Assembly: GCF_001295845.1 (NCBI RefSeq)
Contig: NZ_LJIC01000119.1
Span: 1-44,631, forward strand
DNA: 44,631 nt
Source of the DNA: Rhodopseudomonas sp. AAP120
GTDB taxonomy: Bacteria; Pseudomonadota; Alphaproteobacteria; Rhizobiales; Xanthobacteraceae
Reading direction: 5' to 3'
A program made the position numbers and the translations under genes. Each line of letters starts with the position of its first letter. Within the stretch, counting starts at the first letter, position 1. The notes below the pieces were generated by a model. The model was not told the origin of the DNA, did not search any database, and saw only the letters and a list, made by a program, of their open reading frames with translations. Positions 15,020 through 37,957 of this stretch are shown here, in pieces.

Positions 15020-15067
15020 ACCAAGGCCGTCGCCACGCGGCATACAGAGCCGTACGCTCTCTGGGGT

Positions 15068-15928
15068 TTACCGTTCCAGGTGCTGAGCGAACCGCGCCGC
15101 AAGACCGTTGCTCGGAAGGCTCGAGGAGCGCGCCACGTAAAGCCGCTTGGCGAGGCGCACGCCGTTAAGCGGCACGCTGACGAGGTGCTTCGCCGCGAGT
15201 TCGTCCCTGACGCTGGCTTCCAGCACGATCGAAATGCCGAGCCCGGCGCGGACCGCCGATTTGACCGCCTCGGTACTTCCGAGGTTGCAGCGGATCGTCA
15301 ATCGCTCGGCGATGTCGCCGAGACAGTTGCGCAACATCCGTCCCGTGCCGGTATGCGCCTCCCCGCCGATCATCGGCTCGCCGACGAGGTCGACGGGACG
15401 GATCGATGCCAGACCAGCCCACGGATGGTCGCTGGGCACGATCACCACCGCCGGCTCTTCGCGCCAGACGGTCGCGACAAAACCTCTGCGATCGTCCCAC
15501 CACTCCAGCGCGGCAACGTCAACCTCGCCGCTCTCCAGCTTGTCCAGGATACGGTCGTTACGATCGATCACCATGTCGAGCCGCGCGACCTCGCGTTGCT
15601 GATCGGCGAAAGACCGGAAATACGGCTGCAGCAGATAGATGCCGAGGTTGCCGGCGGCGCCGATGGTGAGATGCGGCTGCTGCAGCGACAGACGCGCGCG
15701 CTCCGCCAAACGAACCAGTCCCTCGGCGTAGCGGACGAAGGCTTCGCTGCCCGGCGCCGGAAAGCACCCGGCGCGCTCGCGCACGATCAGCGTCTGGCCG
15801 ACGCTGTCCTCCAGCTTCTTGATGTGCAGCGTCACGGTCGGCTGAGAGATGCCGAGCTGGCGTGCGGCATCGCGAAAACCGCCGCTGTGTAGGACCGTCA
15901 AATAGGTCCGGATATGCTCAAGGTTCAT
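15068..15928 (-). CDS. ptxE: LysR-type regulator PtxE
   Basis: A 286-residue LysR-type regulator with an N-terminal winged helix-turn-helix (about 1-60, GGFRDAARQLGISQPTVTLHIKKLE) and a two-lobed effector domain. It is the last gene of the phosphite operon, 91 bases after ptxA, matching the place of ptxE, a LysR gene, at the end of the Pseudomonas stutzeri ptxABCDE operon. It probably responds to phosphite or phosphate status and controls the operon promoter. GGGA lies 6 bases before ATG 15928. The regulator family is certain; the ptxE name rests on context. Confidence 0.8.
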   Translation of the reverse strand: MNLEHIRTYLTVLHSGGFRDAARQLGISQPTVTLHIKKLEDSVGQTLIVRERAGCFPAPGSEAFVRYAEGLVRLAERARLSLQQPHLTIGAAGNLGIYLLQPYFRSFADQQREVARLDMVIDRNDRILDKLESGEVDVAALEWWDDRRGFVATVWREEPAVVIVPSDHPWAGLASIRPVDLVGEPMIGGEAHTGTGRMLRNCLGDIAERLTIRCNLGSTEAVKSAVRAGLGISIVLEASVRDELAAKHLVSVPLNGVRLAKRLYVARSSSLPSNGLAARFAQHLER

Positions 15929-16019
15929 CACGATTCCCGCGGACAGTGCCGCCAAACTATCTCACGAATGTCGCCGGCGACACGGCCGTCCAATCGTCGG
16001 GTCCCGGGAGGCAGAAGGA

Positions 16020-16838
16020 TCACGCCGCGCAGGCAGGCTGCTCGGGAGTTTCCTCCGCCTGCGCAGCCTCCGAGCCGTAGATGCGGACACAATCCTCGTC
16101 GGTGAAGTCCCGGGACCGGCAATCGACGACAATCCGTCCATTCCGGAATCCGACGATGCGGTCGCCGACCGCGAGCGCCTGCTCGACCTGATGCAGGCTG
16201 CACAGCACCGATATCCCGTTCTCCTTCGCCACTTTGCGCAAAATCCCGAGCACCGTTCGGGCGGATTCCGGATCGAGGCTGGCGATCGGTTCGTCGGCAA
16301 TGATCAGGTGGCTCTGCTGCGCCAGGGTCCGGGCGATGGCGACGCGCTGCTGCTGCCCGCCCGACAGACCATCGACACGCCTGTAGGCATGGTCGAGCAT
16401 CCCCACCGCATCGAGGCTCGCTAGCGCGAGCTGGCGGTCCTGCGTGGAGAACGCCCCCAGCATCGCACGCCACAGCGAGACGTAACCGAGCCGGCCGGCC
16501 AGCACGTTGTCGATAGCCGACAGCCGGCGCACCAAATTGAACTGCTGAAACACGAAGCCGCAACGGCGGCGCATCGCCACCAGCGCGTCGCTCTTCAAGC
16601 CGGTGACATCGCGCCCGTCGAAACTGATCGTCCCGGCATCTGGCTCGGCGAGGCGCGTGATGCATCGAAACAACGTCGACTTGCCCGTGCCGCTTGGCCC
16701 GAGAATAACAACGAACTCACCCTGACGCAGATCGAGATCGATCCCATCGAGCACGCGATGCTCGCCATAGGCCTTCTTCAGATTGCGGATCGCAAGCATG
16801 ATCGGCTGTTCGGTGGTCGCGGCGACGTCGTCAGGCAT
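16020..16838 (-). CDS. ptxA: Phosphite ABC transporter ATPase
   Basis: A 272-residue ABC ATPase of the PhnC/PtxA family. Walker A GPSGTGKST, signature LSGGQQQR, Walker B LIIADEP and the H-loop His (SLHQVE) are all intact, so it should power import. The ATG at 16838 overlaps the ptxC stop by 8 bases (ATGCCTGA) and has GGGGA 7 bases upstream, implying translational coupling. PhnC and PtxA cannot be separated by sequence alone; the nearby ptxD makes phosphite the likely cargo. The last 20 residues are acidic and Ala-rich with no known role. Confidence 0.85.
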   Translation of the reverse strand: MPDDVAATTEQPIMLAIRNLKKAYGEHRVLDGIDLDLRQGEFVVILGPSGTGKSTLFRCITRLAEPDAGTISFDGRDVTGLKSDALVAMRRRCGFVFQQFNLVRRLSAIDNVLAGRLGYVSLWRAMLGAFSTQDRQLALASLDAVGMLDHAYRRVDGLSGGQQQRVAIARTLAQQSHLIIADEPIASLDPESARTVLGILRKVAKENGISVLCSLHQVEQALAVGDRIVGFRNGRIVVDCRSRDFTDEDCVRIYGSEAAQAEETPEQPACAA

Positions 16839-17697
16839 CAAATTTCCCCGCAAGGTTTCGTCGCGGCACGCGACCTGGATCTGCGCGCGGCGATTCGAGA
16901 ATGGCGCCGCGCAGATAGGCGCTGAGGCTGTCGATCATCCACACCATCAGCAGGATGACGGTCAGCACCGTGACCATTTTCGGGAAGTCGAGCAGATCGA
17001 TGGTGTCCTTGAGGGTCTGACCGATGCCTCCGGCGCCGACGATCCCCAGAACGGTCGACGACCGTACTGTGTACTCCCACATATAAAGCGTCGCCGCGAT
17101 CAGATTGGGTGCGACGTCGGGGATCAGCGCATAGCGGATCACCTTCACGCGGCTCGCACCGGTGAGCGCGACCGCGTCCATCGGTCCCCTGTCGGCAGGC
17201 TCGATCGCCTCGGCGAAGGCCTTGCCGATCGCGCCCATCATGTGGAAGGCGATTGCCAGCACGCCGGTGAAAGGTCCGAAACCGATCGCCGCAACGAAGA
17301 TCAGCGCGAACACCAGAGTCTCAGTGCCTCGGGTGACGTTCAGCACCGCCCGCGCGGCGAGAGACACCAGCGGATGAGGTGTCGTGTTGCGCGCCGCCAG
17401 GAACCCGAGCGGGAAAGCGAAGGCCAGCGCGATCAACGTCCCGATTGACGCCATCGCCAACGTCTCGAACGCCGCGTAGAGAATCTCGTTGATCGTGCGC
17501 AGGTCCGGCGGAAACATCGAGGGTACCCACGACATCACGCGCGGAATGCCGGCCCACAATTTCTGCAGATCGACGTGCGACGCGCGCGCGAATACGACGA
17601 TCAGCACCACCGCCATCAGCAACGCAAAATTTCGGCGGAGCACATTCGCATCACGCCAGGAACGTGGCGGCTCGATATATCGCACCGACTCTATCAT
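16831..17697 (-). CDS. ptxC: Phosphite ABC transporter permease
   Basis: A 288-residue inner-membrane permease of the PhnE/PtxC family with about five or six membrane helices. The EAA-type coupling loop is visible around residues 195-220 (ADRGPMDAVALTGAS then VIRYALIPDVAP), and TVRSSTVLGIVGAGGIG is typical of the family. It would form the pore with PtxA as motor and PtxB as receptor. AGGA lies 4 bases before ATG 17697. It is separated from ptxB by 64 bases holding a strong hairpin and overlaps ptxA by 8 bases. Confidence 0.86.
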   Translation of the reverse strand: MIESVRYIEPPRSWRDANVLRRNFALLMAVVLIVVFARASHVDLQKLWAGIPRVMSWVPSMFPPDLRTINEILYAAFETLAMASIGTLIALAFAFPLGFLAARNTTPHPLVSLAARAVLNVTRGTETLVFALIFVAAIGFGPFTGVLAIAFHMMGAIGKAFAEAIEPADRGPMDAVALTGASRVKVIRYALIPDVAPNLIAATLYMWEYTVRSSTVLGIVGAGGIGQTLKDTIDLLDFPKMVTVLTVILLMVWMIDSLSAYLRGAILESPRADPGRVPRRNLAGKFDA

Positions 17698-17716
17698 AAG
17701 TTCCTCTTCCGGATCA

Positions 17717-17748
17717 GATCGAGGGGGCGCAACAGGCGCCCCCCGATC
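17717..17748 (-). other. Intercistronic hairpin between ptxB and ptxC
   Basis: GATC-GGGGGGCGC and GCGCCCCC-TCGATC pair around a short CTGTT loop, giving a very stable stem just after the ptxB stop. There is no T-tract. Such hairpins often protect the binding-protein message from 3' decay and partly limit read-through, giving more receptor than permease. The role here is inferred. Confidence 0.55.
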
Positions 17749-17761
17749 ATTGGGATTGTTG

Positions 17762-18717
<956 letters not shown>

Positions 18718-18727
18718 CATCCGTTTT

Positions 18728-21424
18728 CTAGATCGTCAGTGCGACCGGCGTATGAAGCGACGGATGCGAGCAACGCCTCGACACGACCACCGCCGAGACT
18801 TTCATGTCGGCGGTCTTACTGATCGGATCCATCAACGGAGTAACCAGTGCATTGGCCGGACCTTCGGTGAAGCAGTACGGCGCGAATACCAGGCCCTCCG
18901 GCAGCGCGTCGTCGGCGCGCACGTAAGTATCGATCGCTCCCTCGCGCGAACGGACCGTGACGGCGTCGCCCGAGCGCAGCGACAGCCGCTCCATGTCCAC
19001 CGGATTCATGCCGACGAACGGGTCGGGCTCGATTGCGCTGAGCACGCCGGCACGGCGTGACATCGGTCCTGTATGGTGCTCGAGCAAACGCCCCGTCGTC
19101 ATCACCAACGGAAATTCGGCCGACGTGATCGACGCCGGCGCTGCGGTCTCTGGCGGCACCAGGCAGGCGCGGCCATTGGTAGTGTGAAAGCGCTCGCTGA
19201 ACAGTAGCGCGGTTTCCGGATCCCCCTCGGCGCGGCACGGGTACTGGACCGCGCCGGTCTGCAGAAGCCGATCCCAAGTGATCCCGCCGATCGAGGGCAT
19301 CGACCTGCGCATCTCGTCGAAAATCTCAGCGGGCCCCGCGTAGTCCCAATGCTGTCCGCAGCGCCGCGCAATTTCTTGCACGATCCACCAATCGGGCTTG
19401 GCTTCTCCAGGTGGCCGCACGGCAGCCCGGGTATGCTGGATCCGCCGGTCGATATTCGTGAGCGTGCCTTCCTTTTCGAGCAGAGCCGCTGCGGGAAGGA
19501 TCACGTCCGCATAAGCGGCCGTCTCGGTGGGAAAGATGTCCTGCACCACGAGATGATCGAGCCGCGCCAGCGCTTCACGGACGTGCCCCGAACCGGGCAT
19601 GCACATCGCCGGATTGGCCCCGTGGGCGTACAGTGCGCGGACGCTGCCGGCGTGAACAGCATCGACGACTTCGATCATGGTGAGGCCCGGCGTGTCGGAG
19701 ATCGGAACGCCCCACAGCGCGGCAAATTTCTCACGCACGTCTGCGGCATCCGCCGGCTGATAATCGGGGAAGTAGTTCGGCAGCATGCCCGAATCCGGTG
19801 CGCCTTGCGCGTTGTTGTGGCCGCGGATCGGATACAGGCCGGTTCCGGGACGTCCCACCTGCCCGCAAATCAGCGCCATCGCGATCAGGCAGCGGATGTT
19901 GTCGGTGCCGTGGCTGTGCTGGGTCATCCCCATGCCCCAGATCGTCATCGCCGCCGATGCGCCGGCATAGACTCGCGCCACCTCCGCGATCAGTTCGGGC
20001 GGCACGCCGCAGATCGCCGCCGCCAGCGGCAGCGGAAACTGCGACGCCATGCGCTCAATCTCCTCGAACCCGTCGACCCGCGCCGCGATAAAATCGCGGT
20101 TGTAGCGTTGCTCCGTGATGATGACGCCCAACATCGCGCCGAGCAGCACGACGTCGGTACCCGGTTTGAATCGCACGACGTGGGAGGCGAACCGATCGAG
20201 CGGCTGGCCGCGCGGATCGACCACGATCAGCTTGGCACCGTTCCGCACAGCGTTGCGCAGCAGCGAACCTGCGACAGGGTGGCTAGTCGACGGGTTCGCT
20301 CCGATCACGAAGATCACGTCTGCATTGGCGCATTCGCCGATCTGGGACGACGGCGCCCCCGTGCCGACGCTTTCGAGCAGCGCCGCGGTCGACGAGGCGT
20401 GACAGAGCCGCGTGGGATGATCGACATTGTTGGTGCCGAACGCGGCGCGGGCCAGCTTCTGAAACAGATAGCTGTCTTCGTTGCAGGTCTTCAGCGAGCC
20501 GAAGAACGCGAGGCTGCCCGACCCGTGCGCTGCGTGGGCACGGCGCAATCCGGACGCTGCAAAATCCGCCGCCTCGTCCCAGCTCGCGGCGCGAAAGCTT
20601 GCGCGCCAGTCGGCGCTGAGCTCGCCCTTGGGCGCCCCAGCCAAACGGATCAGCGGCGTCGTCAGCCGATCGGCGTGGTGGATGAAGTCCTGCCCGAACC
20701 TTCCTTTCACGCACAGCCGCGAGTGGTTGGTCGGTCCGTCCAGCGCCCGGATCTCGACGACACGTTCGTCACGGGCATGCACTTCGATCCGGCACCCCAC
20801 GCAGCAATACGGACAAACCGCTTCGGTGACGCGTTCCTCCGCGCGCAACGGCGCAGCCGCGATTGGCCGATACGCACGATTGGAGAGCGCGCCGGTAGGG
20901 CAGGCCTGCACGCATTGTCCGCAGCTCGCGCAACTGCTGGCGCCGAGCGTGGCCTCGTAATCAAACACGATGTGAATATCGGCCCCGCGCCCGGCGAGAC
21001 CGATCACTTCATGGCACTGCACATCGCGGCACGCCGTCACGCAGAGCCCGCAGGCGATGCATTGGTCGGGATCGAACCCGATCGCCGCATGACTGTCGTC
21101 CTTGGCGACGGCAATTGCCTCCGGCTGCAGCGCTGCGAGCGTCTGCCGGTAGGAGGTCAGCCGAGGGCTTTCGGTCAGTATGCTTTGGCCGGCGCGCGGC
21201 AATTCACGGCACGACGCCTTGAACTGGCGCTCGCCTTCGACTTCGACCAGGCAGGAGCGGCAGCGGCCGGGCCGCGGCAGATCGCTCATCGGCTGACAGC
21301 ATTGATGCGGAATCGAGTGCCCGAGTCGCAGTGCGGTGTCGATGATCCTCTCGCCCGGCCGTGCCTCGACGGCTTCTCCGTCGAGATTGAAGGACACCAC
21401 CGCATCGGTCGGGGCTTGGTTCAT
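18728..21424 (-). CDS. fdsA: NAD-linked formate dehydrogenase, molybdenum large subunit (FdsA-like)
   Basis: An 898-residue molybdopterin oxidoreductase. The order is: [2Fe-2S] ferredoxin domain with Cys42/43, 55, 58 and 72; two 4Fe-4S sets (CIACGLCVTAC at 122-132, CASCGQCVQAC at 165-175); the Mo-proximal 4Fe-4S set (CPYCCVGC at 204-211, C238); then the bis-MGD catalytic domain with the formate dehydrogenase signature Cys341-His342 and RGHNNAQGA. It should interconvert formate and CO2, passing electrons to the FdsB-like subunit. The His-Cys3 cluster segment seen in NuoG/FdsA-type proteins is not evident between residues 75 and 120, and the protein is shorter than typical FdsA. ATG 21424 is chosen; in-frame GTGs at 21436, 21448 and 21460 are alternatives, the last overlapping the fdsB stop as GTGA. 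Confidence 0.85.
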   Translation of the reverse strand: MNQAPTDAVVSFNLDGEAVEARPGERIIDTALRLGHSIPHQCCQPMSDLPRPGRCRSCLVEVEGERQFKASCRELPRAGQSILTESPRLTSYRQTLAALQPEAIAVAKDDSHAAIGFDPDQCIACGLCVTACRDVQCHEVIGLAGRGADIHIVFDYEATLGASSCASCGQCVQACPTGALSNRAYRPIAAAPLRAEERVTEAVCPYCCVGCRIEVHARDERVVEIRALDGPTNHSRLCVKGRFGQDFIHHADRLTTPLIRLAGAPKGELSADWRASFRAASWDEAADFAASGLRRAHAAHGSGSLAFFGSLKTCNEDSYLFQKLARAAFGTNNVDHPTRLCHASSTAALLESVGTGAPSSQIGECANADVIFVIGANPSTSHPVAGSLLRNAVRNGAKLIVVDPRGQPLDRFASHVVRFKPGTDVVLLGAMLGVIITEQRYNRDFIAARVDGFEEIERMASQFPLPLAAAICGVPPELIAEVARVYAGASAAMTIWGMGMTQHSHGTDNIRCLIAMALICGQVGRPGTGLYPIRGHNNAQGAPDSGMLPNYFPDYQPADAADVREKFAALWGVPISDTPGLTMIEVVDAVHAGSVRALYAHGANPAMCMPGSGHVREALARLDHLVVQDIFPTETAAYADVILPAAALLEKEGTLTNIDRRIQHTRAAVRPPGEAKPDWWIVQEIARRCGQHWDYAGPAEIFDEMRRSMPSIGGITWDRLLQTGAVQYPCRAEGDPETALLFSERFHTTNGRACLVPPETAAPASITSAEFPLVMTTGRLLEHHTGPMSRRAGVLSAIEPDPFVGMNPVDMERLSLRSGDAVTVRSREGAIDTYVRADDALPEGLVFAPYCFTEGPANALVTPLMDPISKTADMKVSAVVVSRRCSHPSLHTPVALTI

Positions 21425-21468
21425 GGCTCGGCTCACGGCTTGGCTCACGGCTTGGCTCACGGCTCGGC
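21413..21468 (-). repeat. 12-base tandem repeat carrying possible start codons
   Basis: Four 12-base units, read on the minus strand as GTGAGCCAAGCC twice, GTGAGCCGAGCC and ATGAACCAAGCC, plus a partial unit. The first TGA is the fdsB stop. Each unit gives an in-frame GTG or ATG for fdsA at 21460, 21448, 21436 and 21424. In protein the repeat would read as V/M-S-Q-A type tetrapeptides. Confidence 0.85.
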
Positions 21469-22947
21469 CCGCAGGAAATGTCGATCGAATGACGACAGCA
21501 GTCGCCCCGCGCCCTGCCCGAGTCCACAGATCGAGCCCTGCATCAGCACGTCGGCGACAGCCGCATGATCGTCGGCGACACCGGCGCGCAGCGCTTCGAC
21601 AGCTGCGGAGGTGCCGAGACGACAGGGCGCGCATTGGCCGCAGCTTTCCTCGGCGAAGAATGCCATCAGATCGCGCACGATCGCGGCCGGATCGTCCGCC
21701 TGCGAGAACACGATCACCGCTCCCGCGCCGACTACAGCCCCATGCGCACCGAGGGCCGCATCGTCGAGCGGAAGCGCGGCAAGCGACGCGGGCAGGATGC
21801 CGCCCGAGGCGCCCCCCGGACAAAATGCCGCCAGTTCATGCCCCTCGGCCATGCCGCCCCCGTAGCTGTCGATGAGATCGGTCAGCGAGATGCCGTAGGG
21901 AGCGACATGAACGCCGGGACGTCGCACACGCCCGGACAACGAGTAGTGACGCAAGCCACGCACCACACCAGCGCCGTGGCTGCAAAACCACGCCGCGCCG
22001 CGGGCGAGAATTTCGTTGACCCAGAAATACGTCTCGACGTTGTGGATCAGCGTCGGCCGCCCGAATAGCCCGGACTGTGCGGGAAATGGCGGCTTGTGCT
22101 TCGGCCGTCCCGCCCTGCCCTCCAGACATTCGATCAGCGTTGTCTCTTCGCCGCAAATATACGAGCCACCGGAGCGCCGCCATTCGAAGCTGATGTCCGG
22201 CCACGCCGACGCCAGCGCCTCTGCGGTCGCCTGAAGCCGAGGCATCAGTTCGTGGTGATGGCTGCGCAGATACACGTGGATCACCTCGGCGCCGACGACC
22301 CGCGCAGCCACCAGCGCGCCAGTCAGCACCTGCGCCGGGCTGGTGTCGAGCAGATGGCGATCCTTGAACGATCCCGGTTCGGACTCATCAGCATTGACGA
22401 CTACGTGGCGCGGGCCTTTCCCCGCAGCGACCAGCCCCCATTTATGCGACACCGGAAACCGTGCCCCGCCCATGCCGCCCAGCGCGGACTCGTCGAGAGT
22501 GGCGAGCACGGATGGCAAGTCGGAGACGGGAGCGATCGGCTCGGCCGCCGCATAGCTTGAAGCAGCGCGATGATGGTCGCTTTGCCTCGCAAAACGAACG
22601 CGCCGCTGACCGTTCACCATCGCGACCGGCGCCTGATCACAACCGCCGAGGCACGCCGTGCTCTCGACCTCATCGAGATCAACAAGCCCCTCCGCCTGGG
22701 CCATGCGGCAGGCCGGGCCGTTGCAGAGGCGCAGCTCGGCTGTGGACTCGGCAAAGCGCTTATAGGAGGACGCGACCTCGTACACCTCGGCGATCTTCAA
22801 TCCGTGGTCCAAGGCGATCTGCGCGAGAGCGGTCCGGTCGAGAGCACCGCAGCTGTCCACGATGCGGTGCATCGTCTCGATCAGGCGATGGCGAGGCTCA
22901 CGGCGCCCGATCAAGTCGGCGGCCGCGGGAGGCGTGACGGTCAACAT
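21457..22947 (-). CDS. fdsB: NAD-linked formate dehydrogenase, flavin subunit (NuoE-NuoF fusion, FdsB-like)
   Basis: A 496-residue protein. Residues 20-120 are NuoE-like: a helical part (LDHGLKIAEVYEVASSY) and a thioredoxin-like [2Fe-2S] site with Cys75, 80, 99 and 103. Residues 140-490 are NuoF-like: the FMN/NADH site (GGMGGARFP, ADESEPGSFKDR), GSYICGEETTLIE, and the 4Fe-4S ligands ESCGQCAPCR and SICGLG. It should pass electrons between NAD and the molybdenum subunit. The start has GAGG 6 bases upstream and lies 26 bases after ptxD. No separate FdsG, FdsC or FdsD gene is in the window, so this would be a two-subunit enzyme relying on chaperones encoded elsewhere. Confidence 0.87.
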   Translation of the reverse strand: MLTVTPPAAADLIGRREPRHRLIETMHRIVDSCGALDRTALAQIALDHGLKIAEVYEVASSYKRFAESTAELRLCNGPACRMAQAEGLVDLDEVESTACLGGCDQAPVAMVNGQRRVRFARQSDHHRAASSYAAAEPIAPVSDLPSVLATLDESALGGMGGARFPVSHKWGLVAAGKGPRHVVVNADESEPGSFKDRHLLDTSPAQVLTGALVAARVVGAEVIHVYLRSHHHELMPRLQATAEALASAWPDISFEWRRSGGSYICGEETTLIECLEGRAGRPKHKPPFPAQSGLFGRPTLIHNVETYFWVNEILARGAAWFCSHGAGVVRGLRHYSLSGRVRRPGVHVAPYGISLTDLIDSYGGGMAEGHELAAFCPGGASGGILPASLAALPLDDAALGAHGAVVGAGAVIVFSQADDPAAIVRDLMAFFAEESCGQCAPCRLGTSAAVEALRAGVADDHAAVADVLMQGSICGLGQGAGRLLSSFDRHFLRAEP

Positions 22948-22973
22948 GGAGATCCTCGTCGACGCGACTGGCG

Positions 22974-23987
22974 TCAGGCCAGAACAACAGGTTGGATCGG
23001 CTGCCGCCCGACCAGACCGCCATGCAGCGGCTGACCCTCGAAGAACCGCCGGATGTCGCGCGCAGCCGCCATCGCGATCTCGCGCCGGATCGTATCGACG
23101 GCCGAGCCGAGATGCGGCGTCAGCACGGTGCGCGGATGATTCAGCAGCCGCGCATCGATCGCCGCAGGCCGATCCGGGAGCGCCCAGTCCTCGGTTTCGA
23201 ATACATCTGCCGCGTAACCGCCGAGGCCGCCGCGCTCGAGCGCATCGGCCACGGCGGCTTCATCGACGAGCGAGCCGCGCGCCGGATTGATCAGCAAAGC
23301 GCCGGACTTCATCTGCGCCAGCGCATCGGCGTCGATGATGTGATGCGAAGCCGGCGACAGCGGCAGAGCCAGCACCAGATAGTCCGACTCGGCCAGCAGT
23401 CGCGGCAACTCGCTCCGCAACAGGCACAAGGCGTCCTCCTTGGCCGGCGCGAGCGGACGATCGTCCGCGTAGGAGATCTGGCAGCGGAAAGCGCGAAGCC
23501 GGTGAGCGATCGCCTGCCCCACCGCTCCCATCCCGAGAATGCCGACCATCGCGCCGTCGAGCCCCTTGCCGAACAGGATCGGTCGCCAGCCGTTGAACGG
23601 CGTGGTGCGTACTAGTCGATCGCCCTCCAGCAGATGGCGACCCAGCATGATCATCAGTCCGACCGTCAGCTCGGCGGTGGGCACAGTCAACAGGTCTGGC
23701 ACGATGCTCAGCGCGACACCGTGGCGGCGACAAGCTTCAGTGTCGTAGTTGTCCGCCCCCTTCAGCGCGCAGCCGATCACCTTCAGGCGCGCGCATCGCG
23801 ACAGGAACGGCTCGTCGACGTGGTCCGTCATAAAGGCGAGCATCGCATCGCAGTGCTGCGCGCGGACCACAACCTCCTCGCGGGACCACGGCACGCGGGT
23901 AACGTTGGCCTCGACCTCCCCGAACGTCTGAAGAAACCCCAAGACCTCCTTGTGAACCCAATTGGTGACGAGAATCCGCGGTTTCAT
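22974..23987 (-). CDS. ptxD: Phosphite dehydrogenase PtxD
   Basis: A 337-residue D-2-hydroxyacid dehydrogenase-family enzyme that oxidises phosphite to phosphate with NAD. The PtxD-specific residues recalled for the P. stutzeri enzyme fall at the same numbers here: Met53, Lys76 (in CALKGADN), Trp134, Arg237 (NPARGS), Glu266 (FETEDW), His292 (TPHLGS) and Arg301. The Rossmann motif GILGMGAVG (149-157) is intact, and Asp175 at the end of the second strand favours NAD over NADP. VPDLLTVPTAEL and ADVFETEDW are highly characteristic. AGGGA lies 8 bases before ATG 23987. It is the first gene of the operon, unlike ptxABCDE where the transporter comes first. Confidence 0.93.
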   Translation of the reverse strand: MKPRILVTNWVHKEVLGFLQTFGEVEANVTRVPWSREEVVVRAQHCDAMLAFMTDHVDEPFLSRCARLKVIGCALKGADNYDTEACRRHGVALSIVPDLLTVPTAELTVGLMIMLGRHLLEGDRLVRTTPFNGWRPILFGKGLDGAMVGILGMGAVGQAIAHRLRAFRCQISYADDRPLAPAKEDALCLLRSELPRLLAESDYLVLALPLSPASHHIIDADALAQMKSGALLINPARGSLVDEAAVADALERGGLGGYAADVFETEDWALPDRPAAIDARLLNHPRTVLTPHLGSAVDTIRREIAMAAARDIRRFFEGQPLHGGLVGRQPIQPVVLA

Positions 23988-24027
23988 GACGATCCCTACC
24001 AGCAAAATCTGATCATCATCCAATATC

Positions 24028-24044
24028 GATTATATTTTTCAATC
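24028..24044 (-). promoter_or_regulatory. Candidate promoter and LysR box of the ptx operon
   Basis: On the minus strand a perfect TATAAT (24029-24034) lies about 42 bases before the ptxD ATG, with no good -35 hexamer 17 bases upstream, as expected for an activated promoter. It is embedded in GATT-N9-AATC (24028-24044), which contains a T-N11-A LysR-type core. Assignment to PtxE is inference. Confidence 0.4.
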
Positions 24045-24087
24045 ATGTGACGGGTGCCGACGCGTCCTCAGCGACCGAGTCGTGGAT

Positions 24088-24109
24088 CCGGTGCTCCCGC
24101 CGGCACCGG
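24088..24109. terminator. Possible hairpin after the APC permease gene
   Basis: CCGGTGC and GCACCGG form a 7-base stem with an 8-base loop downstream of the minus-strand operon ending at 24218. There is no clear T-tract in the minus direction, so read-through into the ptx operon is possible. Confidence 0.3.
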
Positions 24110-24217
24110 TCTTGTTGAGTTCAAAAGCGAGTAGGCAGCATGGCCACCGCCGTTCGAGGGGGCGGTCGCGGAAGTGACGCCTGAGGAATGGTGCCTCTGG
24201 TGAGCGGCTTTGCGCGG

Positions 24218-25660
24218 CTAGCCGAACGAGCGGCCGAGATTTTCGTACACCGCCGGCCGGGCACGGCGGATCCAGAGTGCGAACAGATAGCCGGCGATGC
24301 CGATCAGCACGAGCGCGACCGGCAGGCCGTCGATCGCCAGCGACTCCGAGCCGCTGACCAGCGCCAGATTGGCGATCATCGTCACCAGGCAGGCGGCGAG
24401 CCCGAGCGCGCTGAGCGCCGGTGCGATCAACGCCGGCCACAGGCCGATGCCGCGGCGGTTGTTTCGGAAAAACGTGATCACCGCGCCCGACACCACGATC
24501 TGCACCATCAGGATGCCGAGACTGGCGAAGGTGCTCATCCAGGCGAACACCACATCGTAGGGGCTCGCCTTGGCGAGCACGAACAGCAGCGTGGCGACGA
24601 ACAGCACGGCGGTCTGGACGATGCCGGCGACATACGGCGACTGGTGCACGTCGTGGGTGCGCGCGACGTGACCCGACGCGATGCCCTCGCGGCCGAGCGC
24701 GAACAGATAGCGGTTGATGGTGTTGTGGAACGACAGCGTGCAGGCGAACAGGCTGGTGATCAGCAGCGCGTTCATCACGATCCCGGCGACCGCGCCGAGC
24801 CGCGCCTGCACCGCGGTGAGATACAGAGTCGAGGCATGATCCGCCGCCTGCTGGGCGATCTGCGACGGGCCGTAATGCACCGCGACGGTCCAGCTCGCGA
24901 ACGCGTAGAACAGCGCGATGATGCCCACCGCCCAATAGGTCGCGCGCGCGATGGTGCGCTTCGGATCGCGCGCTTCCTCGCCGAAGATCACGGTGGCCTC
25001 GAAGCCGATGAACGACGCAACTACGAACACCAGCGCGACGCCGAAGCCCGACGAGAACACCGCGCTCGGCCCGTAAGGCTTCAGCGACACGCCCTCGGGC
25101 CCGCCGCCGCCGATCAGCACCGCGATGCCGAGCAGACCGAGAATGGCGATCTCGGCGATCATGCACAAACCGAGCACCCGGCCGCTGAACTCGATGTTGC
25201 GCGCGCCGCAGATATAGACGGCCGCCATCAGCACGACCGCATAGACGAACCAATGAATCTCCGGCCCGCCTGCCGACACCATGATGGTGTTGCCGAAGAA
25301 GCCGAACAGCCCGACCACGGCGATCTCGATCGCGAGGTACGTTGCCAGCGTGACGAAGGCGCAGGCCAGCCCCGCCGGCCGCCCCAATCCGTTGGCGATG
25401 TAGGCGTAGAACCCGCCGGCGCTGCCGACGAAGCGGTTCATCGCGGTGAAGCCGACGCTGAAGACGGCGTAAAGCACGCCGACCAGCAGATACGTTCCCG
25501 GCACGCCCGGGCCGTTGCCGAACGCGAACGCAGCCGGCGAAGCGCCGACCACGGCGGTCAGCGGTGCCGCCGCCGCGACCACGAAGAACACGATGTGGGC
25601 GACGCCGACCGCGTCCTTGCGCAGATCCTGCCGCGCCTCGCCTCCAGTCGTCACCGACAT
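24218..25660 (-). CDS. APC-family amino acid or amine permease
   Basis: A 480-residue inner-membrane protein with about 12 membrane helices, of the amino acid-polyamine-organocation superfamily. Recognisable features are the first-helix segment APLTAVVGASP, SAGGFYAYIANGLG, and the family motif GFEATVIFGEEARDPKRTIARA after helix 6. It probably moves an amino acid or amine with protons; the substrate is unknown. It is the last gene of the transporter-amidase operon, 22 bases after the dimethylformamidase large subunit, so import of an amine or export of the amine product are both plausible. Confidence 0.85.
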   Translation of the reverse strand: MSVTTGGEARQDLRKDAVGVAHIVFFVVAAAAPLTAVVGASPAAFAFGNGPGVPGTYLLVGVLYAVFSVGFTAMNRFVGSAGGFYAYIANGLGRPAGLACAFVTLATYLAIEIAVVGLFGFFGNTIMVSAGGPEIHWFVYAVVLMAAVYICGARNIEFSGRVLGLCMIAEIAILGLLGIAVLIGGGGPEGVSLKPYGPSAVFSSGFGVALVFVVASFIGFEATVIFGEEARDPKRTIARATYWAVGIIALFYAFASWTVAVHYGPSQIAQQAADHASTLYLTAVQARLGAVAGIVMNALLITSLFACTLSFHNTINRYLFALGREGIASGHVARTHDVHQSPYVAGIVQTAVLFVATLLFVLAKASPYDVVFAWMSTFASLGILMVQIVVSGAVITFFRNNRRGIGLWPALIAPALSALGLAACLVTMIANLALVSGSESLAIDGLPVALVLIGIAGYLFALWIRRARPAVYENLGRSFG

Positions 25661-25682
25661 CCTGCTCTCCCCGTCAAAGCAC

Positions 25683-27998
25683 TCACCGCCACAGCTTCTC
25701 GTCGCCGGAATACTCCGTCCCCGGCAGCTTGCCGGGCGTCAGGAATGCGCCGAGCACGTTGCGCATAAAGGTCGCGGTGTTGTTGTCGCCGCCCTTGCAC
25801 GGCAGCGCCTGGCTCCAGGCGATCGAGCCGATCGACAGGCAGGCGCCGTCGTTCGCCGTGGTGAAGTAAGTGATGTCGGCGCGGACCTGCGGATCCTGCG
25901 TGCCGCCGCGGCCCGGAAAGGCGTAGGCGACTTCTTCGGAGACCAGCGGGTAGTTGTCGGAATGGCCGTGCGACGCCGCCAGCAGCAGCGCATGCGGCGG
26001 CGTACCGAGCGCGAGGTCGTAGCGGTCGATCTCGAGGCCGGCGGCGCCGCCGAGGCCGAGGCCGAAATCGCCGATCTTCTCCTGCGGCCCGATGCCCTCG
26101 AACATCCAGGCGGCGCGGCGGTGGAACGAGTCCGGCATCCGCTCGAACGGCTGCGACTCGTCCATGCCCTCCGAGGTGAAGCCGACGCCGACGATCTTCT
26201 GCGGCGGCCGGCCGCGCGAGCGCCACAGGCCGGAGCGTTCGCCCGTGGTGGCGAGATAGCCCTCTCCCGGATCGGCCTGCCACGCGCGCGAGCCGGTGTC
26301 GAGCTTGCGCACCTCCATGCAATGCGGCTCGTCCTCGCGCAGCCCGCAGACCCAGTAATAGCCGTTACCGCCGAGATACATCAGCCGGCCACCGGCGCGC
26401 ATGTAGTCCTCGGTGCCGTCCAGCATCTTTTCGGAATAGTATTCCGGATGCGTGCAGGTGATGACGGTCCGATACGGCGCCAGCGCGGCGGCGCCGCCTT
26501 CGTGGAGATCGTGATCGGTCAGCACCTCGAAATCATAGCCGGCATGATCGAGCCACCAGATCAGCGACAGGTCGGCCGGCAGCGCCCATGGCACCCCGAT
26601 CGAGCCGGCGCGGAATTTCGGCCGCATGTTGATGATCGGTCGCCGCCACGAGGTGTAGCAGCAGCCGGCGCCGTCGCCATGGTGGTCGTAGGTCGACAGG
26701 CCGAATTCCTGCAGCTTGTAGTTCTCGATGTCCTCCTCGCTGAGGATCGGCGTGTGCGCCACGATCGACTGCGCGACCGGCGAGCCGAACGCGAGCTGCT
26801 CGTTGGCGTAGGCGAGATACGAGAACGTCGCGATCAGCACCGCCAGCGGCGCCTTCGGCTTGGCGGCGGCGACGAAGAACGGGATGTGATCCTCGGCGTC
26901 CCCGGCGCGTAGCCGCAGCGCATAGACACCGCTCTTCAGATCATCCGGGATGGTCAGCGTGACAGTCGGCTGCCATTTGGCGTCGGTCAGCGCGTCGTCG
27001 TGAAATGCGATGCCGCCATACTGCGACGGGTTGAGCCGATAGCAATCGTCGCGGCCGGCCCAGTTCCAGCCGGTCATGCCGCGCACCGGGCGATTGACAC
27101 CCTGCGCGTGCAGCCCGTTCGGGCCGGTGTCGACGATGGTGTCGCCGATGCCGCTGTCGGTGTAGCCAGCGGTCGTGTCCCAATGCGCGATGCACGGCAC
27201 CGCGGCGGGCGGCGTTCCGCTGCGCAGGATCTCGGCAATGTCGGCATCGGACAGCACCGCGCCCGCGACGCCGGCGCGGTCGATCTTGCCGTTGTAGAGG
27301 ATGCTGACGAAGCGGCCGCGCAGGTCGTTCTCCTCGCTGCCGCCGGCCCACAGGAACGGGATCGCGGCGCCCGGATCTGCCGGCTTCACCTTGAGCGTCT
27401 CGGTGACGTGAGAGTCGTAGTCACGCGGCACGACCGGACCGGTCAGCGAATTGTAACGGTTGACGACGCCGACCTGATGCAGCCGCACCTCGCCGCTTGC
27501 GGCGCTGTAGCTCGCCGCGACGAAATACCAGACCCGCTCGACCAGCGGGATCTCGGCCGCGACGTGATCGATCTGCGCGCCGTCGCCGACCCAGAATTCC
27601 AGCTTCCCCTCGGCGCTGATGCCGAGGCCGTAGCCCTTACTCGCAACGACGTCCCATTTCGACAGGATGGCCTGCCGCTTGATGCCGGGCTTGGTCGGAT
27701 ACACGAACGCATACAGCGTGAAATCGCCGGTCGGCATCAGCAGCTGCCGCGGGTCGTCGACCACGGCATGGCCGCCGAGCTGCGTGAATTGCCGCTTCAC
27801 CGCGATCGTCGCAGGGATCGTGCTGACGACCTCCTGCTCGACGAAGCCGGGCCCCTCCGGGCTTTCGTCGCCGTGCAGCAAGCGGACGAGCTGCGCGTCG
27901 ACGTGGTCGGTGCCCTCGCCCGAGATCATGAACGAGACCGTCTGGCCGGCCTTCACCGACAGCGGGTCTGCATAACCATGGATACGTTTCGTCGCCAT
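25683..27998 (-). CDS. dmfA2: N,N-dimethylformamidase large subunit
   Basis: A 771-residue protein matching the large (beta) subunit of N,N-dimethylformamidase, which hydrolyses dimethylformamide to dimethylamine and formate. The iron site known from the Paracoccus enzyme is two Tyr and one Glu (recalled as Y399, Y440, E521); here Tyr397 (SYLAYANE), Tyr437 (LSTYDHHGDG) and Glu519 (THPEYY) sit at nearly the same positions, and the recalled catalytic Glu657 matches Glu656 (GLEIDR). An N-terminal lectin-like part (about 80-260) is also present. It starts 10 bases after the small-subunit coding region, with GAAGG upstream. The real substrate may be another N-substituted formamide. Confidence 0.87.
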   Translation of the reverse strand: MATKRIHGYADPLSVKAGQTVSFMISGEGTDHVDAQLVRLLHGDESPEGPGFVEQEVVSTIPATIAVKRQFTQLGGHAVVDDPRQLLMPTGDFTLYAFVYPTKPGIKRQAILSKWDVVASKGYGLGISAEGKLEFWVGDGAQIDHVAAEIPLVERVWYFVAASYSAASGEVRLHQVGVVNRYNSLTGPVVPRDYDSHVTETLKVKPADPGAAIPFLWAGGSEENDLRGRFVSILYNGKIDRAGVAGAVLSDADIAEILRSGTPPAAVPCIAHWDTTAGYTDSGIGDTIVDTGPNGLHAQGVNRPVRGMTGWNWAGRDDCYRLNPSQYGGIAFHDDALTDAKWQPTVTLTIPDDLKSGVYALRLRAGDAEDHIPFFVAAAKPKAPLAVLIATFSYLAYANEQLAFGSPVAQSIVAHTPILSEEDIENYKLQEFGLSTYDHHGDGAGCCYTSWRRPIINMRPKFRAGSIGVPWALPADLSLIWWLDHAGYDFEVLTDHDLHEGGAAALAPYRTVITCTHPEYYSEKMLDGTEDYMRAGGRLMYLGGNGYYWVCGLREDEPHCMEVRKLDTGSRAWQADPGEGYLATTGERSGLWRSRGRPPQKIVGVGFTSEGMDESQPFERMPDSFHRRAAWMFEGIGPQEKIGDFGLGLGGAAGLEIDRYDLALGTPPHALLLAASHGHSDNYPLVSEEVAYAFPGRGGTQDPQVRADITYFTTANDGACLSIGSIAWSQALPCKGGDNNTATFMRNVLGAFLTPGKLPGTEYSGDEKLWR

Positions 27999-28008
27999 CG
28001 CCGGGCCT

Positions 28009-29541
28009 TCAGCTTTCGAGCAGATCGTTGACGCGGAGCAGGAACACCGCGTGGTACACCTCGTCGAGCGTGGCGTAGAGCTTGTCGTCGACCACGCGCG
28101 GCGGATGGCCGGGTCGGCCGGAGAACGCCATCACCTTGTAGGAGCAGCTACGGAACGGCCCGACCCGCATGATGGCGTATTTGTCCGCCAGGTCGGCGCG
28201 GCGGAAGTAGTTCAGCACGCGGTCGAGCGCGTCGGAATGCTGGCCGAGCGGCTTCATCTTGTGCTCGGCGATCAGCTCCGGCGTGATCATGGTCTTGAGC
28301 TGGTCGCGGATGCGCTTGTCGAACAGCCGGTAATAGACCTGCTGTTTGTCGGCGATCTCGGTGGCTTCTTCGGGCATCACTTCACCCCCCTTCTCGGTCC
28401 GCACCGCGCGGCGCTCGCTCTTCTTGCGGTTGCGGAAACTGCGGAACTGACCGCGCACGCCGACCAGGCCGTTGTGCGCGGTGGTAGCGACCAGCACCAT
28501 CACGGCGGCGATCAGGATGATGCGCAGCGGCCCGAGGTCGATCAGCCCCTTGTCGATCAGCACCACGATCGCGGTGCCGACCACCGCGCCTTCGGAGCGG
28601 CCGAGCCCGCCGATCACGATCATGGCGAACATCACCAAGAGCTGATCGAGCGAAAACACGGTGAGCGAGATCGAGCGATAGAACATCGCGTAGAATGCGC
28701 CGATCGCGCCCAGCGCCGCCGACGAGATGATGAACACCCACAGCCGCGCGCGGCGATAGTCGATGCCGACCGCCTCGGAGAACGCCTCGTCCTCGCGCGC
28801 CGACTGCAGCAGGATGCCGAGCCTTTCGCTGTTGACGAGGCGGAACACCAAGAGCGCGCACAGCAGCAGCACGAAGGCGCCGGCGAAGCCGAGCAACAGG
28901 CCCGGTCGCTTCAGCAGCCAGTCGGCCGGGATGAACGAGGCGACCTGATTGATGCTGCCGTTCGACGGCGCCAGCGCCTTGATCTGCGACACGAATACGC
29001 GGCAGATCTCGGCGACGCCGAGCGTCAGCAGCGCGTAGTACAGCCCGTCGAGCCGGGTCGACGGCAGCGCCAGGATGGCGCCGATGACGAGCCCGACCAG
29101 CGCGCCGATCGGGATCAGCAGCGGCCACGGCACGCCGAGATAGACGTTGGCGGCGGCGGCCGCATAGCCGCACAGCCCGACCACCGCCATCGTCGCCAGC
29201 GAGAAGATGCCGGCGGTGCCGATGATCAGCGTCCAGATCACGTTGATCGCCGCATAGATGCAGAAGATCGACGCCACCGTGATGCCCTGGTCGCTGAGGA
29301 ATGGCGTCGTCACCAGCAGCGCGCCGAGGCCGAGCGTCCACCACAGCGGCCGCTTGTCGTCGAGGCTGCGCTCGCGCACCAGCGAACGCGGGTTGATCCG
29401 GCCGCGCCACGCCAGCCAGTGCCGCTTGGTGAACGGCACGCGCCAGCGCTCCCACGCCGCCGCTCCGGCCGGCTTCAGCGTCAGTTCGTGCGGCCGGCGT
29501 CCGACCTGATAATAAGTGCGATCCGGCGTCTGATCGGCCAC
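28009..29541 (-). CDS. livM: LivM-type ABC permease fused in frame to dimethylformamidase small subunit
   Basis: A 510-residue frame. Residues 1-70 are a polar leader, and 70-370 are a LivM-type branched-chain amino acid permease (about ten helices, with LLLCALLVFRLVNSERLG and the coupling loop SAREDEAFSEAVGIDYRRAR). From Met389 on, the sequence matches the small (alpha) subunit of dimethylformamidase: YYRLFDKRIRD, VLNYFRRADLADKYAI, and the ending VYHAVFLLRVNDL. The junction lies in a GGGGGG run at 28385-28390. With five G the permease would stop at a TGA overlapping the small-subunit ATG (TGATG). Met389 (ATG 28377) has its own strong ribosome site, so a free 122-residue subunit could be made in any case. 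Either a real fusion, a slippage site or a sequencing error. Confidence 0.8.
   Translation of the reverse strand: MADQTPDRTYYQVGRRPHELTLKPAGAAAWERWRVPFTKRHWLAWRGRINPRSLVRERSLDDKRPLWWTLGLGALLVTTPFLSDQGITVASIFCIYAAINVIWTLIIGTAGIFSLATMAVVGLCGYAAAAANVYLGVPWPLLIPIGALVGLVIGAILALPSTRLDGLYYALLTLGVAEICRVFVSQIKALAPSNGSINQVASFIPADWLLKRPGLLLGFAGAFVLLLCALLVFRLVNSERLGILLQSAREDEAFSEAVGIDYRRARLWVFIISSAALGAIGAFYAMFYRSISLTVFSLDQLLVMFAMIVIGGLGRSEGAVVGTAIVVLIDKGLIDLGPLRIILIAAVMVLVATTAHNGLVGVRGQFRSFRNRKKSERRAVRTEKGGEVMPEEATEIADKQQVYYRLFDKRIRDQLKTMITPELIAEHKMKPLGQHSDALDRVLNYFRRADLADKYAIMRVGPFRSCSYKVMAFSGRPGHPPRVVDDKLYATLDEVYHAVFLLRVNDLLES
28378..28390 (-). promoter_or_regulatory. Internal ribosome site and G6 tract at the LivM/small-subunit junction
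   Basis: On the minus strand AAGGGGGGTGAAGTG leads directly to ATG 28377. The G-run is a purine-rich Shine-Dalgarno site 5 bases before the ATG and is also the homopolymer whose length decides whether LivM and the amidase subunit are fused. Internal initiation would yield the 122-residue small subunit (28009-28377). Confidence 0.6.
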
Positions 29542-29544
29542 GCC

Positions 29545-30471
29545 CTACTCCCGCGTTTCGTCGAGCAGGCCGCCAAGTCCGCGCGGGCGCGCGACGAGGA
29601 CGGCGATGATGACTGCGAACTGGACGAACAGCACGTAGCGCTGCCCGAGGAACGGGACGATGCCGGTGATCGCCTCGACGAAGCCGATCAGCACCGCGCC
29701 GGCCACCGCGCCCGGCACCGAGCCGAGGCCGCCGAGCAGCGCGATGGTCAGGCCCTTCACCAGCGGGATCGCGCCGGCGGTCGGGCTGACGAACACCGTC
29801 TGCGACAGCAGCACCGCGGCGAGCCCGGCGAAGGCGCCGGTCAGCATCATGATCGGCAGCGCGGTGCGCCGCGCCGAGATGCCGGACAGCGCCGCGCCCT
29901 CCATGTTCTGCATCACCGCGCGGATCTCGAGCCCCATCCGGCTGCGCCGCAGCCACAGCAGCGTCAGGCCGAGCACCGCGATCGTCGTCAGGATGGTGAC
30001 GATCTGATCGATCCGGAGCGACATCCCGAGAATATCAGTGCGGCCGATGCCGAACACCTTGGGCAGACTCTTCTGCTGCGGCCCGAACCACCACAGCAGC
30101 GCCTGCACGGTGGCGAGGTTGATCGCCATGGTGATGATCAGACTGCGCACCGCGAAGTTCGGCTTGTCGTGGATCGGCAGGAAGGCGATCAGATAGATGA
30201 CCACGCCGCACAGCGCGCCGACGACGATGCCGGTCAGCGCCAGCAGCACCGCCAGCGCCGGGTTCGACCACGCGGTGGTGGTGATCGCCGCCTTGACCAG
30301 CGGCGTGAACCATTGCGCGGCGAGGAAGGCGCCGTAACCGGACACGGCGAAGGTCGCGCCGTGCGCCATGTTCACCATGCCGACGCTCGACCACAGCAGC
30401 GAGATGCCGATCGCCATCAGGCCGTAGATCGCCCCGAGATACAGCGCATACAGAACCAGCCCAGCATCCAT
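29545..30471 (-). CDS. livH: LivH-type ABC permease
   Basis: A 308-residue inner-membrane permease of the branched-chain amino acid family, with about eight helices. LivH features include GLMAIGISLLWSSVGMVNMAHG at the N terminus (the conserved N-AHG motif), the coupling loop RSRMGLEIRAVMQNMEGA, and GGLGSVPGAVAGA near the end. Its ATG overlaps the livF stop by one base (TGATG), and livM begins 3 bases after its stop. It would pair with the LivM part of the fused gene to form the channel. Confidence 0.88.
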   Translation of the reverse strand: MDAGLVLYALYLGAIYGLMAIGISLLWSSVGMVNMAHGATFAVSGYGAFLAAQWFTPLVKAAITTTAWSNPALAVLLALTGIVVGALCGVVIYLIAFLPIHDKPNFAVRSLIITMAINLATVQALLWWFGPQQKSLPKVFGIGRTDILGMSLRIDQIVTILTTIAVLGLTLLWLRRSRMGLEIRAVMQNMEGAALSGISARRTALPIMMLTGAFAGLAAVLLSQTVFVSPTAGAIPLVKGLTIALLGGLGSVPGAVAGAVLIGFVEAITGIVPFLGQRYVLFVQFAVIIAVLVARPRGLGGLLDETRE

Positions 30472-31172
30472 CAGACGAGATCCACGTGGCCGACTTCGCC
30501 GCGCAGGCGGCCGGCGTGCATGCCGATCATGCGATCGACCTTGCCCGACAGGAGTTCGACGTTCTGCTCGGCGATCACCATCGCCTTGCCGTCGAGCGAA
30601 ATGTTCATCAGCGCATCGACGACGCGCTCCGAGATCTTCGGCGCGAGGCCGAGAGACGGTTCGTCGATCAGATACAGCTTGGCGTCGGCCATCAGGGCGC
30701 GGCCGATCGACACCATGCGGCGCTCGCCGCCGGACAACTTGCCGACCAGCGAGTCGCGCAGTTCGCGCAGCGGCGGAAACAGGTCGAAGACCTTATCGGC
30801 CCGCGCGTCGCGGCCGTGCCAGGCGTCTTTGGTGTAGGCGCCGCAATCGAGGTGCTGGCGCACAGTCAGGCCCGGGAAGATCGCGTCGCCCTGCGGCGTC
30901 ATCGCGATCCCCATCCGCACGATGCCGGGCGTGCGCCGCCCCTCGCCGAGCGAGCGCGAGCCGCCAATTTCGGCCTCCTCAAACCGCACCGAGCCGCGCT
31001 GCCAGCCGACCAGATGCATGATGGCGCGGAACAGCGTGGTCTTGCCGTGGCCGTTGAGCCCGACGATGGCGAGCCGCTCGCCCTTGGCCACCGCGAAGTC
31101 GATCTCGTGCAGCACGCGCAGCGGCCCGTACCCGGCCGACAGGCCTTCGATCTTCAGCAGGTGCTTACTCAT
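30471..31172 (-). CDS. livF: LivF-type ABC ATPase
   Basis: A 233-residue ATPase of the LivF family. Walker A GLNGHGKTT, signature LSGGERRMVSIGRAL, Walker B LYLIDEP, the SLGLAP D-loop and a Gln in the H-loop region (VIAEQNVELL) are typical of LivF. It starts at an ATGA overlap with livG. With its intact signature it can supply the full hydrolysis site that the LivG partner may lack. Confidence 0.9.
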   Translation of the reverse strand: MSKHLLKIEGLSAGYGPLRVLHEIDFAVAKGERLAIVGLNGHGKTTLFRAIMHLVGWQRGSVRFEEAEIGGSRSLGEGRRTPGIVRMGIAMTPQGDAIFPGLTVRQHLDCGAYTKDAWHGRDARADKVFDLFPPLRELRDSLVGKLSGGERRMVSIGRALMADAKLYLIDEPSLGLAPKISERVVDALMNISLDGKAMVIAEQNVELLSGKVDRMIGMHAGRLRGEVGHVDLV

Positions 31173-31891: not shown

Positions 31892-31911
31892 CGCCCTGCC
31901 CGCCGGCCCGC

Positions 31912-33174: not shown

Positions 33175-33343
33175 GCGCTGCCCTCCGCTTTACTGACGGT
33201 GCAAATCATAAGCAACGCCGTTCGCGGCTGACCATGATGCGAATGCATCCCCCGGCGGGGCGCTTGCTAATCCTTCGGAACTGTTTGTTACGTATCAGGC
33301 GACGTTTGCTGCAACGCGGCCTCGCGCAACGAGGGAAGTGAGC

Positions 33344-34354: not shown

Positions 34355-34363
34355 CCTTCGGGA

Positions 34364-36037: not shown

Positions 36038-36097
36038 GTCAGTCTCCAGATTTTATAGTTGGTTCTGATCTTTCAGGCCCGGCTCAGCCGGCGCCCG

Positions 36098-37920: not shown

Positions 37921-37957
37921 CGCGAGGTCTCCTTCGAGTGACGGCAAGCGGCGCGGC

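Follow-up and report, generated by a model that had tools for sequence, protein, structure and literature searches.

A formate dehydrogenase-like molybdenum enzyme in the place of HtxA in a putative hypophosphite operon of Rhodopseudomonas sp. AAP120

The closest described counterparts of the locus analyzed here are the htxABCD-ptxDE operon of Alcaligenes faecalis WM2072, which is of the same kind as operons with the order htxA-htxB-phnE-phnC-ptxD-lysR, the ptxABCDE operon of Pseudomonas stutzeri WM88, and the FDH1-type formate dehydrogenases. In the literature passages covered, the sole hypophosphite oxidase named is HtxA, a 2-oxoglutarate dioxygenase (PMC5700983, PMC11066067, PMC5357788). 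We analyzed 44,631 nucleotides of Rhodopseudomonas sp. AAP120 (contig NZ_LJIC01000119.1, positions 1 to 44,631; the whole stretch is called the window, and its genome, G000, is 6.16 Mb), focusing on a cassette of seven genes on the minus strand. This operon is the known htxA-htxB-phnE-phnC-ptxD-lysR operon minus HtxA, plus an FdsBA-like molybdenum enzyme. Judged from sequence, it is probably an assimilatory hypophosphite operon, in which FdsBA would act as a hypophosphite dehydrogenase linked to nicotinamide adenine dinucleotide (NAD) in the place of HtxA, and PtxD would finish the oxidation. The seven genes and the extent of the cassette are as follows.

22974..23987, minus strand: ptxD-like NAD-linked phosphite dehydrogenase, 337 amino acids (PDB matches)
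21457..22947, minus strand: fdsB-like subunit, a NuoE-like [2Fe-2S] part fused to a NuoF-like flavin mononucleotide (FMN)/NAD part, 496 amino acids (domains and PDB matches)
18728..21424, minus strand: fdsA-like molybdopterin catalytic subunit, 898 amino acids from the ATG at 21424 (TIGR01591 and PDB matches); proposed catalytic subunit of a hypophosphite dehydrogenase
17762..18652, minus strand: htxB-like periplasmic protein, predicted to bind hypophosphite (HtxB match and pocket residues)
16831..17697, minus strand: htxC/phnE-like permease (TIGR01097, 274 bits; NCBIfam cut-off 216.7)
16020..16838, minus strand: htxD/phnC-like ATPase (TIGR02315, 300.5 bits; NCBIfam cut-off 266.1), whose open reading frame (ORF) could begin at 16853
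15068..15928, minus strand: ptxE-like LysR regulator (domain match), whose ORF could begin at 15955
15076..24052, minus strand: cassette common to Rhodopseudomonas sp. B29 at 79% DNA identity, with different flanks

The ORF lists and coordinates bear out the seven minus-strand genes and the order given for them in a preliminary description of this DNA: all are open, they run from 23987 down to 15068, and the intergenic gaps are short or replaced by overlaps. PtxD retrieved phosphite dehydrogenases as its top PDB matches (348 bits), with glyoxylate reductase as the next family (162 bits). The top PDB matches of the FdsB-like and FdsA-like proteins were the beta subunit (373 bits) and the alpha subunit (936 bits) of formate dehydrogenase 7e5z, and the FdsA-like protein scored 707.7 bits to TIGR01591, for which the cut-off is 666.25. 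The features of FDH1/FdsBA, namely molybdopterin domains, iron-sulphur motifs, and an FMN/NAD subunit, are all present in the window. The binding-protein gene most likely starts at 18652; its ORF could begin at 18676. The LysR protein is 48% identical to that of the htxA operon at locus L135. Promoter and terminator scans returned no more than was found in shuffled sequence.

The window operon shares PtxD, a phosphonate-family ATP-binding cassette transporter, and a LysR regulator with ptxABCDE of P. stutzeri WM88, and differs from it in having a binding protein of the HtxB type rather than the PtxB type and in the addition of FdsBA. The binding protein scored 473 bits to solved HtxB (5me4) against 85 bits to PtxB (5o2j), so the label ptxB used in the preliminary description does not hold. 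Given the HtxB-type neighbour, the permease and ATPase are presumably better named htxC-like and htxD-like. According to the passages covered, W52, N128, and F158 shape the hypophosphite pocket of HtxB, and D206 and R178 form an ion pair there (PMC5700983). All five residues are kept in the aligned window protein, as they are in six further FdsA-linked and two HtxA-linked HtxB proteins. In a more distant HtxB-like group, 45–49% identical to the window protein, S and H replace N128 and F158 in all four members aligned (L128, L129, L134, and L138); the same two residues occupy these positions in the phosphite binder (PMC5700983, passages covered). At two of these loci, an HtxA relative (48%) lies beside the HtxB-like protein with S and H (L134 8041-8793 and L138 5830-6582), and ptxD was not in the stretch of either.

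Comparison with operons that encode HtxA places the window operon more precisely. Nine plasmid records contained an HtxB relative at 1e-50. Both complete plasmid places above 72% identity, from Burkholderia aenigmatica (L135) and Cupriavidus (L136), have the order htxA-htxB-phnE-phnC-ptxD-lysR, and the third close place, on an Acinetobacter plasmid (L137), shows htxA-htxB at the end of the record; fdsA was absent from the fetched stretches of all three. The Burkholderia and Cupriavidus operons have in common with the window an HtxB-type binding protein, a single PhnE-type permease, a PhnC-type ATPase, PtxD, and LysR, whereas the window is without the HtxA dioxygenase and has fdsB-fdsA between ptxD and htxB. 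An HtxA search of 12 genomes, 11 of them carrying FdsA-linked HtxB and the last serving as a control (G236), returned a 48% relative in the control alone and partial matches of 29–30% in G073 and G145; HtxA at 40% identity or more was thus found in none of the 11. No HtxA was detected in the window genome at E ≤ 1e-10, nor at the B29 locus.

The association of fdsA with HtxB recurs in the family of Rhodopseudomonas. Among 391 family genomes, HtxB relatives at 1e-60 were found in 28, at 31 places: 12 places (11 genomes) with at least 73% identity, and 19 with at most 52%. When longer stretches were fetched, fdsA lay on the same contig at 10 of the 12 close places. The other two, G289 C174 and G222 C312, are contig ends, and the remainder of the operon appears to lie on another contig of the same genome; the rearranged version in G222 is visible as contig fragments only. 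The window order, ptxD-fdsB-fdsA-htxB-phnE-phnC-lysR, was looked for in relatives and is present in Rhodopseudomonas sp. B29 (L009/L131; NZ_BADD01000799.1), with rearranged versions in nine further genomes. A second layout has htxB-phnE-phnC-fdsB-fdsA with lysR-ptxD divergent (L119-L122, L126, L127), and a third has htxB-phnE-phnC-fdsA with no fdsB alongside (L123 2552-6026; L125 2778-6257). Seven distinct FdsA sequences occur at the 12 places. An identical FdsA is found at L119-L122 in three genera, indicating that the cassette is mobile. By eye, a recombinase-like ORF lies near the htx cassette at L119-L122, which suggests recent transfer.

Between the window and B29, the ratio of nonsynonymous to synonymous substitution rates (Ka/Ks) was 0.09–0.16 for six genes, with 0.12 for fdsA and 0.16 for fdsB. 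The remaining gene, ptxD, was left out because it matches in two frames in the B29 draft (L131 16677-17667), which may reflect a draft error or a broken gene. The preliminary description had allowed for an accidental insertion of the fds genes; recurrence of the cassette in B29 at 79% DNA identity, together with the low Ka/Ks, disfavours this. Longer flanks were fetched for 16 distant HtxB-like loci, 10 drawn from the 19 in the family sample and six from the eight in the order and class samples; fdsA was found at none of them and an HtxA relative at one (L134). Wider sampling, across 397 genomes of the order, 385 of the class, and 398 of the phylum, turned up no HtxB at 1e-100 other than that of G000.

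We also searched from the side of the enzyme. With the FdsA of L126 as query, 215 of 381 family genomes gave a match at 1e-200; G381 (L123) is not in this listing. FdsA of the L126 type, defined by at least 58% identity, occurred at nine places in eight genomes, seven of them at HtxB operons and two on contig fragments of the G289/G222-type operon, and the next best match was 47% identical. This type lacks the histidine that follows the molybdenum-ligating cysteine, and all nine of its places among the 381 genomes are at HtxB operons or fragments of them. For the window-type FdsA, among the best 80 relatives kept, the B29 protein is 85% identical and all others are at most 51% identical. A further formate-dehydrogenase-type gene (1e-100) was present in 10 of the 11 genomes with htx-linked FdsA. 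In the window genome, an Fds-type formate dehydrogenase gene on contig C78 shares the molybdopterin family and the iron-sulphur N-terminal part with the window FdsA, which differs from it in lying at a separate locus and in being 38% identical.

The catalytic subunit was compared with the FDH1-type W/Mo formate dehydrogenases (7e5z, 7vw6). The window proteins resemble these in domain make-up, iron-sulphur motifs, molybdenum-ligating cysteine, and the fused NuoE/NuoF beta subunit; the window FdsA is 47–52% identical to the FDH1-type rows compared and has about 30 residues fewer between the [2Fe-2S] and 4Fe-4S domains. Formate oxidation involves the histidine after the molybdenum-ligating cysteine together with the RGxNN arginine. 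The codons of these sites in the window are as follows.

20399..20404, minus strand: codons of C341 (molybdenum ligand by homology) and H342 of FdsA
19817..19825, minus strand: codons of R534, G535, and H536 in the FdsA motif RGHNN, which reads RGQNN in alphaproteobacterial FDH1-type enzymes

All five distinct members of the larger htx-linked subgroup read RLCASVPPL where FDH1 has RLCHASSVAAL, a shortening by two residues. At eight of eight loci of this type the histidine is absent, and it is present in all 22 FDH1-type family controls; the arginine of RGxNN is kept. The window and B29 proteins retain Cys341-His342 and Arg534 in the alignment. At 25 columns, every htx-linked row, including the window and B29, differs from the residue common to FDH1, and among the changed residues, with the ATG at 21424 as residue 1, are G208, E317, E603, S608, and D609. 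G208 is constant in the 23 FDH1-type and nine chosen outgroup rows of this smaller alignment, which holds no Bacillota rows, and is changed in the window. By the motifs of this alignment, the window has CPYCC for CPYCG, NED for NEE, GANPxxCM for GENPxxSD, and RGHNN for RGQNN. A wider alignment of 97 rows, two of which do not reach the molybdenum site, contained 42 rows with Cys-Gln (the Bacillota type), 36 with Cys-His, nine with Cys-Met, and eight with Cys-Ala (the htx-linked subgroup). The lost histidine thus appears special against FDH1 and the outgroups of the smaller alignment, not against all relatives. Bacillota formate-dehydrogenase-type proteins (L037-L068 and others) carry Cys-Gln where the proteobacterial proteins have Cys-His. 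RGHNN was no longer taken to signal a new substrate, since Bacillota-type rows share it. An AlphaFold model of the window FdsA had a mean predicted local distance difference test score of 63.9, with active-site stretches below 50, and was set aside. The case for a substrate switch in the window FdsA therefore depends more on its gene neighbourhood and its relationships than on its active site.

Trees bear on these relationships. With 29 rows, all seven distinct FdsA sequences linked to htx genes cluster together (support 97/93) next to the FDH1-type formate dehydrogenases, and a quick tree of 58 rows recovers the cluster with a support of 84. The FdsB tree agrees weakly (81/77), with long branches. 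Had such enzymes been recruited twice into operons of this kind, that would say just as much about function.

A consistent pathway can be proposed from these components. The HtxB-type binding protein, identified by its protein type and pocket residues, would import hypophosphite together with the permease and ATPase. At its molybdenum-cysteine center, FdsA would break a P-H bond of hypophosphite by hydride abstraction, as its relatives do with the C-H bond of formate, and release phosphite. The iron-sulphur clusters may then relay the electrons to the FMN of FdsB, and from there to NAD; the cluster and cofactor domains for this are present. PtxD, a member of the phosphite dehydrogenase family, would in turn oxidise the phosphite, yielding phosphate and using a second NAD, and the terminal LysR gene probably controls the operon. 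With FdsBA standing where the 2-oxoglutarate dioxygenase HtxA stands, hypophosphite use would become independent of oxygen. The redox potentials given in the passages covered, −740 mV for hypophosphite and −650 mV for phosphite (PMC5700983), would leave ample drive for NAD reduction. Formate is reportedly turned over by HtxA itself at a comparable rate (PMC11066067, passages covered), indicating that one enzyme can take both hypophosphite and formate.

Several observations weigh against this pathway. The window and B29 FdsA could be true formate dehydrogenases, since they retain both the Cys-His pair and the arginine, and the loss of histidine in the other type does not by itself exclude formate, as Bacillota rows carry Cys-Gln. 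Exclusive linkage to HtxB operons applies to the histidine-less type only, because the window-type FdsA is not separable from FDH1 by identity. Separate origins of the two types were not rejected in the approximately unbiased (AU) test (p = 0.121), and without the histidine-less type the window and B29 proteins fall at the base of FDH1 with unsupported branching; a single origin was accordingly set aside as a firm claim. NAD coupling is not universal, given that L123 and L125 have fdsA with no fdsB alongside. An unseen HtxA is possible in G223, G222, and G289, whose genomes are 92%, 85%, and 84% complete. A gene for a formate-producing N,N-dimethylformamidase lies upstream in the window. Finally, phosphite is also transported by the P. 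stutzeri system HtxBCDE (PMC5357788, passages covered), so plain phosphite use is a possibility as well.

The preliminary description had offered three readings: phosphite oxidation driving the reduction of carbon dioxide (CO2) to formate, joint oxidation of formate and phosphite for NADH, and action of the molybdenum enzyme on a reduced phosphorus oxyanion such as hypophosphite. The last is favoured by the HtxB-type transporter, the absence of HtxA, and the recurrence of fdsA in the closest HtxB operons, and the first two are not. The type of the binding protein and the comparison with HtxA operons both argue against viewing the locus as a phosphite operon to which a formate dehydrogenase was added; formate as the substrate of FdsBA would be compatible with both. 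The alternative that FdsBA is an ordinary NAD-linked formate dehydrogenase, oxidising formate for NADH either from dimethylformamidase or alongside phosphite, nevertheless seems unlikely. It draws on the retained Cys341-His342 and Arg534, on the formate dehydrogenase as top PDB match and the TIGR01591 score above its cut-off, on the dimethylformamidase large subunit encoded at 25683-27998, and on the occurrence of, or parallels to, RGHNN and the missing histidine in Bacillota formate-dehydrogenase-type proteins. Against these stand the restriction of the histidine-less type to HtxB operons in the 381 family genomes searched, the finding of the window type at no other locus than that of B29 (among the best 80 loci, the one after it is 51% identical), the changed G208, and another formate-dehydrogenase-type gene in the same genome. 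An ordinary formate dehydrogenase would also leave hypophosphite import without an oxidase. As for the source of formate, the cassette shared with B29 stops at 24052, leaving out the dimethylformamidase genes, and none of six upstream gene products was matched in the stretches fetched for 12 htx-FdsA loci. Formate derived from dimethylformamide was set aside as the FdsBA substrate for this reason: the cassette moves without dimethylformamidase.

Two further explanations were weighed. It is improbable that FdsBA protects formate metabolism, either as a hypophosphite-resistant formate dehydrogenase in cells that the analogue enters via HtxBCD or as an enzyme that oxidises a wider range of small oxyanions. 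Hypophosphite mimics formate and is toxic; hypophosphite, formate, and FocA occur together in the literature, and residues conserved in FDH1 are changed, all of which would suit protection. Under this reading, however, no enzyme would be left to convert hypophosphite to phosphite in genomes that have an HtxB-type transporter and no close HtxA. The use of PtxD-derived NADH by FdsBA to reduce CO2 to formate is highly improbable. FdsBA-type enzymes are reversible, but the potential would be lost at NADH (about −320 mV), which lies above CO2/formate. The transporter is moreover of the hypophosphite type, related operons without FdsBA contain the hypophosphite oxidase HtxA, and domain scans recognised no formate-using gene in the cassette. 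The strongly exergonic oxidation of phosphite (−650 mV; PMC5700983, passages covered) is the other point in favour of CO2 reduction. Hypophosphite oxidation by FdsBA thus remains the favoured reading.

The cassette lies within a larger accessory region.

15020..40579, no strand assigned: accessory region, with its right edge at the 3' end of tRNA-Leu(GAG)

This region spans about 25.6 kb; the same flanks are 3.5 and 1.1 kb apart in the Rhodopseudomonas genomes G108 and G125, and homology with these resumes at base 40580, at the 3' end of tRNA-Leu. No exact repeat of the tRNA-Leu end region of at least 12 bases was found between 14000 and 40560, and no integrase was noticed by eye in the window ORF lists. 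Upstream of the cassette, the dimethylformamidase large subunit matched 6lvb with 667 bits. Genes for an amino-acid permease and a branched-chain-type ATP-binding cassette transporter surround it (24218-33174), perhaps forming a cluster for the use of dimethylformamide or amides, and by eye the tail of the ORF at 28009-29541 may hold the small subunit. On the other side, two tandem polysaccharide-deacetylase-like genes recognised by eye (12655-15019) adjoin the cassette, in a stretch common to other Rhodopseudomonas.

A literature search, judged mostly from titles and with a 2006 Wilson thesis on Xanthobacter flavus outside its scope, recognised no formate-dehydrogenase-like hypophosphite enzyme. 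Xanthobacter flavus WM2814 may oxidise hypophosphite by another route. An operon of this strain is shown in a figure of PMC4046663, and the thesis on the strain is cited in PMC5700983. Of the 865 genomes surveyed in the passages of PMC11066067 covered, four had htxB, and just two of these four had htxA, which points to transporters without an oxidase. A formate-dehydrogenase-like partner could explain such htxB genomes without htxA, as well as anaerobic hypophosphite use, the subject, by its title, of a 1978 Bacillus paper cited in PMC4046663.

Taken together, it is reasonably likely that a branch of molybdenum formate dehydrogenases became an oxygen-independent, NAD-linked hypophosphite dehydrogenase that took over from HtxA in mobile operons with HtxB and PtxD in the Rhodopseudomonas family, converting hypophosphite to phosphate with the yield of two NADH and without oxygen, and perhaps recruited more than once. 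The HtxB-PtxD pathway itself is known; what is new is FdsBA in the place of HtxA, and if the enzyme acts as predicted, its reaction would, within the literature searched, be the first of its kind among molybdenum enzymes. In that case hypophosphite, a reduced phosphorus compound that is rare, would have a second route of use, one free of oxygen; the oxidation of P-H bonds would be added to the reactions of molybdenum enzymes, and the genes would provide a new marker for hypophosphite use.

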